This document shows, one piece after another, positions 20,804 to 47,889 of a stretch of DNA of 64,000 bases. Source of the DNA: Thermosediminibacter oceani DSM 16646. Lineage in GTDB: Bacteria > Bacillota > Thermosediminibacteria > Thermosediminibacterales > Thermosediminibacteraceae. How positions within the stretch are numbered: the first letter of the stretch is position 1; every line of letters begins with the position of its first letter. The notes below the pieces were generated by a model. It was not told where the DNA came from. It made no database searches and saw only the letters and a list, made by a program, of their open reading frames with translations. Location of the stretch: contig NC_014377.1 of NCBI RefSeq assembly GCF_000144645.1, positions 868,001 through 932,000 of the forward strand, read 5' to 3'. Position numbers and translations under genes: made by a program.

Positions 20804-20866
20804 CCCGTATATTATGAAAATATCGAGGGAAGATATAAAAAGAACAAAATTAATGGAGGGAAAGAT

Positions 20867-21193
20867 ATGGTGGGAATGATTATCAGGTTTATCGTATCAG
20901 CTTTAGTTTTGATGCTCATTAGCTTTTTGTTACCCGGTTTTCAGGTTGCAGGTTTTACGGGAGCTCTAATCGCAGCCATCGTAATCGCTATAATGGGCTT
21001 TATCGTTGAAAGCATACTCGGAGAAAAGATTTCACCTCAGAGTCGGGGAATTGTGGGTTTTATTACCGCAGCGGTCGTAATATATTTTGCCCAGTTCCTG
21101 GTACCGGCTATGAAAGTAACCTGGTGGGGAGCTCTTCTTGCTTCGCTGGTGATCGGTATAGTCGACGCTTTCGTACCTACGGAACTACGATAG
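20867..21193 (+). CDS. Phage holin family 4 / YvlD-like membrane protein
   Basis: The 108-residue protein has four membrane helices (about residues 4-22, 30-48, 62-80 and 86-102) and the YvlD-type loop ESILGEKISPQSRG. These proteins are called holin-like from sequence similarity only; most are chromosomal and are not lysis proteins. ATG at 20867 follows GGAGGGAAAGAT. The adjacent gpr gene begins 12 bases after its stop, so they share a transcript. A sporulation or germination link is possible from this position but not shown. Confidence 0.8.
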   Translation: MVGMIIRFIVSALVLMLISFLLPGFQVAGFTGALIAAIVIAIMGFIVESILGEKISPQSRGIVGFITAAVVIYFAQFLVPAMKVTWWGALLASLVIGIVDAFVPTELR

Positions 21194-21205
21194 GGGGGAT
21201 AAATT

Positions 21206-22174
21206 ATAAACATTAGAACTGACCTTGCAATAGAAGCCCGGGAGATGACCGGAAAAGAAGAGATCCCGGGCGTGCTTATTGAAACAGAAAAATCTCAGGA
21301 AATAGCGATAACCCGCGTGAGGATTATTAATGAAGATGGCGAGAAAGCCCTGGGGAAGCCAAAAGGATACTACGTTACACTGGAAGTACCGAGGCTCAGA
21401 GAGAAGGATCCTAAGTTAACCGAAGAGGTCAGTAAAAATTTAGCCGAAGAATTAAAATTTATGATAAATCTCCCGGTAGAATCGACAGTACTGGTCATAG
21501 GCCTGGGTAACTGGAATGTTACCCCCGATTCCCTAGGTCCAAAAGTGGTTGAAAGACTTATCGTCACAAAACATCTCGTGGAGCTTATACCGGAAAGATT
21601 CAGCCCCCGAAACGGAATAAGGCCGGTATGTGCTCTGGCACCGGGAGTATTGGGAATTACCGGAATAGAGACGGGTGAAATAATAAAGGGCGTCGTGGAA
21701 AGGGTAAAGCCCGAACTTATTATCGTGATCGACGCCCTGGCCTCAAGAAGCCTGGAGAGAATAAGTACTACGATTCAGATTTCCGATAGCGGCATACATC
21801 CCGGTTCCGGCGTCGGCAACAGGCGCATGGGTATTACGCAAAAAGGCATGGGCGTACCAGTAATAGCTATAGGAGTGCCGACGGTTGTCGATGCAGCGAC
21901 TGTCGCCAGCGATACACTGGAAATGTTGATAGCGGAGTTTGAACGCCAGGCTAAACCCGGATCCGAATTTTATAAAATGCTGCAGACTTTGAACAGGGAG
22001 GAAAAATACCAGCTAATCCGGGAAGTACTTTCTCCATTTGTCGGTGAACTGGTAGTAACGCCCAAGGAAATAGATTCGCTTATAGAAAATATTTCCAAAA
22101 CCCTATCCGGCGGCTTAAATCTCGCCCTTCATCCCGGAATATCCTACGAAGAGGTCAGTACTTTTCTTCAGTGA
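21206..22174 (+). CDS. gpr: GPR spore endopeptidase, probable ATA start
   Basis: Gpr is the germination protease that degrades small acid-soluble spore proteins. The 322-residue reading includes the conserved segments VIGLGNWNVTPDSLGPKV, FSPRNGIRPVCALAPGVLG and HPGSGVGNRRMGI. The family N terminus (I/V)RTDLA(x)E is present as NIRTDLAIEARE, but no ATG, GTG or TTG precedes it: TAA at 21200-21202 closes the frame. ATA at 21206 lies seven bases after GGGGGG (21193-21198) and would give M-N-I-R-T-D-L. The first ordinary start, ATG at 21245, would delete that segment. Confidence 0.85.
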   Translation: MNIRTDLAIEAREMTGKEEIPGVLIETEKSQEIAITRVRIINEDGEKALGKPKGYYVTLEVPRLREKDPKLTEEVSKNLAEELKFMINLPVESTVLVIGLGNWNVTPDSLGPKVVERLIVTKHLVELIPERFSPRNGIRPVCALAPGVLGITGIETGEIIKGVVERVKPELIIVIDALASRSLERISTTIQISDSGIHPGSGVGNRRMGITQKGMGVPVIAIGVPTVVDAATVASDTLEMLIAEFERQAKPGSEFYKMLQTLNREEKYQLIREVLSPFVGELVVTPKEIDSLIENISKTLSGGLNLALHPGISYEEVSTFLQ

Positions 22175-46420: not shown

Positions 46421-47053
46421 ATAGAATTAACACCTAGACAAATGATGATAGTTGACATTGTAAAAAAACACGAACCAATAACCAGTGAAGAAATAGCGGC
46501 AAAGCTCAATATTACAAGAGCCGCTTTAAGGCCCGACCTGTCCATTCTTACCATGGCGGGTATCCTCGAAGCCAGGCCGCGGGTGGGTTATTTCTATGCC
46601 GGCAAGAATACGAAGAGCCTGCTGGCTGAAAAGATAAGGAGCATAAAGGTCAGCGACATTAAGGCTGTGCCTGTTGTGATAAAAGAAGAAACATCAGTAT
46701 ACGATGCTATCGTGACACTGTTTCTGGAGGATGTCGGTACGCTTTTTGTTGTCCAGGAGGACGGCAGCCTGTGCGGTGTGGTTTCGCGAAAAGACCTGCT
46801 CAAGATAGCGATGGGAAACGCCGATATAAGGCAGATACCCGTGAGCGTAATTATGACCAGAATGCCGAATCTGGTCACAGTAACGATGGAGGAAAGCGCT
46901 TTTGATGCAGCTCGAAAAATAGTCGAACATCAGGTAGACGCCCTACCTGTGGTTAAGCCGGAAGAGTTTGAAGGGAAAGTAAAATACAAAGTTGTAGGCA
47001 AGGTTACCAAGACCACAATAACCAGGCTTTTTGTTGAATTGGGAAGAGGTTAA
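46421..47053 (+). CDS. ccpN: CcpN-like repressor (HTH plus CBS pair), probable ATA start
   Basis: The 210-residue protein has an N-terminal helix-turn-helix ([17 protein letters not shown]..., [27 protein letters not shown]) and two CBS domains. This matches CcpN (YqzB), which represses gluconeogenic genes and senses ATP/ADP. The family start ...IELxxRQ corresponds to ATA at 46421, eight bases after a GGAGG (46408-46412). A TTG at 46391 lies upstream of the SD, and the next ATG (46442) is 25 bases too far. ppsR follows after 14 bases, as in Bacillus. Confidence 0.87.
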
Positions 47054-47067
47054 AGGGGGGATTCAAA

Positions 47068-47889
47068 ATAGTTAGTTTAGGTGAACCTGTAATTTTTGCC
47101 GTATCAGACTCTATAGGGGAAACGGCTGAGCTGGTTGCTCGGGCTGCTGCGGTGCAGTTCAATTCCGGGCACGTGGAGATAAGAAGATATCCATTCGTGA
47201 CAGACCTAGAGTATGCCAGGGAAGTAATAGAGGAAGCCAGGAAATTAAAAAATTGCGCAATAGTTTGTACAATAGTGCTGCCTGAAATCAGGAAAAGCTT
47301 AGTAGAGCTCGCTGAAGCCAACAATATCCCTATTATAGACATTATGGGACCAATGATGGACATTGTTTCTAAAATAACCAGCGCCAGGCCAAAACTCGAG
47401 CCAGGTCTGGTGAGGAAGATCGACGAAGACTATTTCAAAAAAATAGAGGCGATAGAATTTGCGGTAAAATATGACGACGGTAAGGATCCGAGGGGCCTTG
47501 CCAAAGCCGATGTGGTTCTAGTGGGGGTTTCCAGGACTTCGAAAACACCGCTGTCTATGTATCTTGCCCATAAAAGGCTTAAGGTGGCCAATCTGCCTCT
47601 CGTGCCTGAAGTTTCCCCTCCCGAGGAGCTGTTTCAACTACCTCCCGGGACCGTCATAGGCCTTACAATAAACCCTGAAATCCTTTATAGGATTCGGCGG
47701 GAGAGGTTAAAAGCTTTGGGACTTAGCAGCGATGCTACGTATGCCAGTATGGAGAGAATTTTAAAAGAGCTTGAGTATGCCGATGGTATAATGAAAAAAA
47801 TCGGCTGCCCCAGGATCGACGTTTCTAACAAGGCAGTCGAGGAAGTCGCTGCCAGAATCCTGGAAATCATCAGGAGGGGAGAAGACTGA
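47068..47889 (+). CDS. PPDK regulatory protein PpsR (DUF299), probable ATA start
   Basis: The 273-residue enzyme is the bifunctional ADP-dependent kinase and Pi-dependent phosphorylase that turns pyruvate phosphate dikinase off and on. The family N terminus [19 protein letters not shown] is encoded but no ATG, GTG or TTG precedes it; ATA at 47068 lies seven bases after GGGGGG (47055-47060). The first ordinary start, GTG at 47152, would remove 28 residues including this motif. The P-loop-like [15 protein letters not shown] is intact. The gene overlaps ppdK by one base. Confidence 0.88.

Follow-up and report, generated by a model that had tools for sequence, protein, structure and literature searches.

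We examined the start of gpr in a 64,000-nucleotide stretch of Thermosediminibacter oceani DSM 16646 DNA (hereafter the window), where the gene lies directly downstream of a gene for a YvlD-like membrane protein (Phage_holin_4_2) and directly upstream of spoIIP (Table 1). GPR is the protease that degrades the small acid-soluble, DNA-protecting proteins of the spore at germination. Judged by its profile and structure matches, the frame at 21206..22174 encodes this germination protease: its product matches the equivalog model TIGR01441 from end to end (421.7 bits against a cut-off of 120; model positions 1-306 of 306), as well as PF03418 (Peptidase_A25, 358.3 bits) and PDB 1c8b (E=4e-89), and the GPR of Thermosediminibacter litoriperuensis is 94% identical to it.

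Table 1 Features around the start of gpr and at two further genes of the window
Feature	Position	Strand	Remarks
Promoter-like element GTATA-N17-TATA ahead of yvlD-gpr	20810..20840 (approximate)	+	By eye
yvlD-like membrane protein gene (Phage_holin_4_2)	20867..21193	+	PF04020, 71.8 bits
GGGGGG, Shine-Dalgarno (SD) sequence of gpr	21193..21198	+	Overlaps the yvlD stop codon
ATT, alternative gpr start, less likely	21203..21205	+	SD spacing 4, or 5 by aligned count
ATA, supported start codon of gpr (initiator Met)	21206..21208	+	SD spacing 7
gpr, germination protease; an ATA start gives 322 aa	21206..22174	+	Stop TGA 22172-22174
Codons N-I-R-T-D-L, covering the short pro-segment with its presumed autocleavage site (D|L)	21209..21226	+	Cut by analogy with B. 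megaterium GPR
In-frame ATG, first canonical codon, rejected as gpr start	21245..21247	+	Without a spaced SD
ccpN, ATA start 46421, without a usable canonical start	46421..47053	+	NF053704 equivalog, 325.5 bits
ppsR, ATA start 47068	47068..47889	+	PF03618, 343 bits

The 5' end of gpr reads GGGGGG (21193-21198), A 21199, TAA 21200-21202, ATT 21203, ATA 21206, AAC 21209 and ATT 21212, after which AGA ACT GAC CTT GCA, encoding RTDLA, begins at 21215. ATT, ATA, AAC and ATT are the only codons separating the in-frame TAA (21200) from the RTDLA motif, with no ATG, GTG or TTG among them, and the following in-frame ATG is at 21245. An earlier note on this DNA had placed the start of gpr at ATA 21206, and its gpr coordinates are all correct: the near-cognate codons that it named (ATT 21203, ATA 21206 and ATT 21212) match our reading, and GGGGGG to ATA 21206 is exactly seven bases. 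The parallel that it drew with ppsR is also accurate, since GGGGGG at 47055-47060 precedes ATA 47068 by the same seven bases. The yvlD stop codon, TAG 21191-21193, is 12 bases upstream of ATA 21206. The three 16S copies have the standard anti-SD CCTCC, with which the SD of gpr pairs; this SD is kept in each of the order's 20 genomes that carry gpr, with the variants GAGGGA, AGGAGG or AAGGAGGTGATC in relatives. An Rfam search of the gpr start site found neither a riboswitch nor any other known RNA, and no conserved hairpin covers the start; single-sequence folds vary among species.

We compared this region across the order Thermosediminibacterales, represented by 22 genomes from about 11 genera, 20 of them with gpr. 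At SD spacing every one of the 20 genes carries an AUH codon (AUA, AUC or AUU) and none carries ATG: ATA is found in 17, ATC in G016 and ATT in G018, and one gene, that of G014, is ambiguous, its TTG, ATC and ATA lying at spacings 3, 6 and 9. The comparison of orthologous start codons, which had been suggested as a check, thus came out in favour of ATA. In 17 of the 20 genes, no ATG, GTG or TTG occurs in the interval from the preceding in-frame stop to RTDLA; the canonical codons of the remaining three are not well placed, the ATG and TTG of G018 and G021 falling inside the yvlD overlap. That a canonical start is lacking and that an AUH codon is conserved at SD spacing are both apparent from the aligned genes themselves. 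The gpr start lies 12-15 bases past the yvlD stop in all 20 genomes, in any of the three relative frames, and the distance from ATA to RTDLA is three codons in family f1 and usually five in family f2. Because the distance to the yvlD stop is fixed while the distance to RTDLA and the frame vary, the ATA keeps its place relative to the SD, which is the behaviour expected of a start codon. Sequencing error as the source of the ATA is excluded by the independent assemblies of the relatives. One genome of the order, G015 (99% complete), has no GPR match; it may have lost sporulation or carry a diverged protease.

ATG 21245 is the first canonical codon of the gpr frame, and automatic annotation may well pick it, in which case gpr would be translated from there and the RTDLA codons upstream would be untranslated. 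The evidence makes such a start, which the earlier note had named as the finding that would overturn its proposal, exceedingly improbable, and we reject it. The position is Leu (CTT, CTG or CTC) in 10 of the 20 genomes, and the ATG has no spaced SD; GGGAG directly abuts it. The 12 codons before it read N-I-R-T-D-L-A-(I/L)-E-A-R-E with almost no amino-acid change across the 20 genomes, whereas their synonymous sites are saturated, with all six Arg codons occurring at the first Arg and 4-fold sites differing at 0.60-0.67 on average within families. Translation of gpr upstream of ATG 21245 is evident from this protein-level constraint, and the almost purely synonymous variation of the RTDLA pro-segment region across the order indicates that it belongs to the translated GPR. 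Further, R4, T5, D6, L7, A8 and E10 are invariant in an alignment of 16 Clostridia relatives down to 43% identity, and TIGR01441 begins at RTDLA, upstream of this ATG. The AlphaFold prediction (mean pLDDT 78, from just 16 sequences) shows disorder over residues 1-5 and a helix over residues 7-15; a start at ATG 21245, which is residue 14, would drop the family-invariant R4-E10 and most of the predicted helix.

Two other ways of translating this region can be weighed against the same comparison. Initiation could fall one codon earlier, at AUU 21203, giving M-I-N-I-R-T-D; AUU is a known near-cognate start (infC), its SD spacing here is acceptable, and in the window itself it may serve as a minor gpr start. 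However, the ATT of 21203 is present in only five of the 20 genomes, its place being taken elsewhere by AAT, GTT, AAA, GAT or other codons, while the ATA stays, at a spacing of 7-8 that is nearer the optimum. We favour ATA 21206, since ATT is missing in most relatives and ATA keeps the SD spacing, and regard AUU 21203 as an improbable main start. A YvlD-GPR fusion made by stop-codon readthrough or by frameshifting on the G run is exceedingly improbable. The two genes do share a frame in G000 and most of family f1, some with a single intervening stop, and the G6 run before gpr could be slippery, but all three relative frames occur across the order, and several genomes, the window included, have a second in-frame stop between the genes. 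With relative frames that are not conserved, we reject the fusion.

Outside the order, gpr has a canonical ATG, TTG or GTG start with an SD in 53 of the 56 genes that our search motif could read (about 30 further stretches were unreadable by it), and in none is the start AUH-only; the class-level outgroup neighbours of the order use TTG. Fisher's test of the order versus the outside genes gives p of about 1e-13 to 1e-15, which, because the sequences are related, we read as one ancestral change to an AUH start that has been kept since. Order-wide conservation, purifying selection upstream of ATG 21245 and a canonical start at the same place in the outgroups together support the proposed start at ATA 21206, and it is from these that we infer initiation at the AUA itself. 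The genome scan for GGGGGG-N7-ATA, also put forward as a check, is uninformative alone (15 matches versus 11 for a reversed control), and codon counts after SD-like motifs without gene models were too noisy.

Using a start-finder based on a simple pairing score, we surveyed starts in a sample of 864 kb (38% of the genome) containing 783 gene-like ORFs; the sample may miss further AUH genes. A canonical start with an SD was found for 659 of the 783 ORFs (ATG 422, TTG 131, GTG 106), and about seven resemble AUH starts: gpr, ccpN, ppsR, infC (ATT), and genes for a Lin0512 family protein (ATA), a histidine kinase (ATA) and a TrkH-like transporter (ATC). An altered initiator tRNA is ruled out, as the two initiator tRNAs are both CAU with the usual initiator features, and an altered anti-SD by the standard sequence of the three 16S copies. 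Loss of RsmH, which raises AUU mis-initiation (PMC13317604), is ruled out as well: RsmH is found in 21 of the 22 genomes, and the exception is a genome that is 68% complete. Given ordinary initiator tRNAs, anti-SD and RsmH and the rarity of AUH starts, a relaxed code is unlikely, and the AUA start of gpr appears to be a local, gene-specific feature.

Our main reading, to which we give a probability of about 0.82, is that gpr is translated from the near-cognate AUA 21206, and that weak initiation there would provide a low, yvlD-linked supply of GPR zymogen. The strong SD seven bases upstream would position the 30S subunit with AUA in the P site, where ordinary fMet-tRNA (CAU) would pair with it despite a mismatch at the third position. 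IF3 normally rejects third-position mismatches at the start codon, and initiation at the AUA would for this reason be weak. Ribosomes terminating at the yvlD stop probably feed the gpr start, since the SD overlaps the yvlD stop codon. The outcome would be a low supply of zymogen, linked to yvlD, and the benefit would be that a self-activating protease is limited in the forespore. The weakness of the AUA, the coupling to yvlD and the benefit of a dosage throttle are put forward as our best reading, a hypothesis about gpr. The yvlD-gpr neighbourhood is also found in the TTG-start outgroups, at a longer distance, and is not specific to AUA. Ahead of yvlD-gpr, a GTATA-N17-TATA-like element, recognized by eye, is conserved order-wide (L001-L025, L114-L118); it resembles sigma-F/sigma-G promoters and is consistent with a forespore sigma factor.

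The proposed start also has a consequence for the pro-segment. Processing of B. megaterium GPR removes about 15 residues. In that protein about ten residues precede SVRTDLA (comparison with PDB 1c8b); by analogy, a cut after D6 in the window GPR would release only M-N-I-R-T-D, and the pro-segment of the zymogen would be very short.

The low-dosage hypothesis fits what has been measured in S. aureus, where infC, ccpN and citZ have mapped AUA starts. Compared with AUG, expression from the AUA/AUU sites tested there (those of ccpN, citZ and cvfC1) is about 10%, reaching 30% for ccpN in rich medium, which is a 3- to 10-fold penalty (PMC13009471). The hypothesis also fits the absence of AUA-to-AUG reversion within the order. 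The third base of the gpr start is never G in the 20 genomes, whereas each of the 15 invariant Lys/Glu/Gln columns in gpr contains both A and G. The chance of finding no ATG is roughly 0.007 at the mean G fraction and 0.1-0.35 if G is rarer; because the genomes represent about 11 genera, this absence gives limited independent support, and it hints at selection against AUG at the gpr start in a way that is suggestive only. Alternatively, the AUA could be a relic that is tolerated but has no regulatory value, expression being sufficient thanks to the strong SD and the coupling to yvlD. Several observations would sit well with this: non-ATG starts are common among the SD-supported starts of the genome (the 131 TTG and 106 GTG beside 422 ATG counted above), the class outgroups already have TTG for gpr, and ppsR, the AUA-start neighbour of ccpN, has ATG or GTG in about five genomes, while in 15 of 22 its ATA is the sole choice, with no canonical codon available. 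However, gpr and ccpN are never ATG across the order, though one transition would yield it (the ccpN start is AUH in all 20 order genomes where it was found), and genome-scale work describes selection towards AUG with only a handful of switches to AUU; bacteria-wide such switches are extremely rare, at 1 of 61,358 ancestral AUG starts (PMC5622118). We consider a relic possible and clearly less likely than a start kept for its low output.

Very few bacterial genes are known to have a conserved AUA, AUU or AUC start, and gpr, with no usable AUG, GUG or UUG at its N-terminus and a strong SD before an AUH codon in 20 of 20 genomes, is by its sequence features a member of the infC/ccpN kind. Like gpr, infC (IF3) has a near-cognate AUU or AUA start behind a strong SD, but infC is autoregulated by its own product, whereas gpr encodes a sporulation protease without a known link to IF3. 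The AUA of ccpN in S. aureus and B. subtilis likewise has a strong SD at suitable spacing and is conserved within its clade (PMC13009471), and the ccpN of the window has such an AUA too; ccpN encodes a metabolic repressor, and its AUA site was mapped by ribosome profiling and reporters, whereas that of gpr is read from sequence. In cvfC1 (AUU) and E. coli pcnB (AUU), which are other genes in other lineages, an inefficient near-cognate start was experimentally shown to limit expression, the role that we propose for gpr. The canonical gpr of Bacillus and Clostridia (B. megaterium, PDB 1c8b) shares the family, the RTDLA segment and the forespore role; it starts with ATG, GTG or TTG, in contrast to the AUH start found in the order and the six-residue putative pro-segment of the window GPR. 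We found no published AUA start for gpr in the open-access literature. With gpr, a core sporulation protease gene whose AUH start extends over a whole order, the near-cognate list gains a developmental gene, which suggests that start-codon weakness can persist across an order as dosage control. Gene finders limited to AUG, GUG and UUG would truncate AUH-start genes. Such a truncated annotation is likely for gpr, and the protein predicted from it would lack its pro-segment together with the presumed site of autocleavage.

The other AUH genes differ in how widely the start is kept. Each of the 21 infC copies that we read, from 19 genomes of the order, begins with ATT behind GGAGGTGA, as expected for IF3 autoregulation; the G000 copy lies at G000:C1 about 1370684 (L186, L253:5684 minus). 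It is conceivable, though doubtful, that the set of infC, ccpN, ppsR, gpr, Lin0512 and the histidine kinase is translated according to the state of IF3 or of free ribosomes; if so, GPR synthesis in the forespore would be timed by start-codon stringency besides sigma factors. Candidate starts were also noted for a sensor histidine kinase (ATA; L084:17714 plus) and for a TrkH-like transporter, named by eye from its sequence (ATC; L253:4528 minus). The Lin0512 family gene, another near-cognate candidate (L098:13887 minus), has ATA in five of eight genomes, ATT in G015 and ATG in G009 and G012; the G012 copy (G012:C1:2167003-2167337; L194, L195) appears to be broken, with in-frame stops and a frame change.
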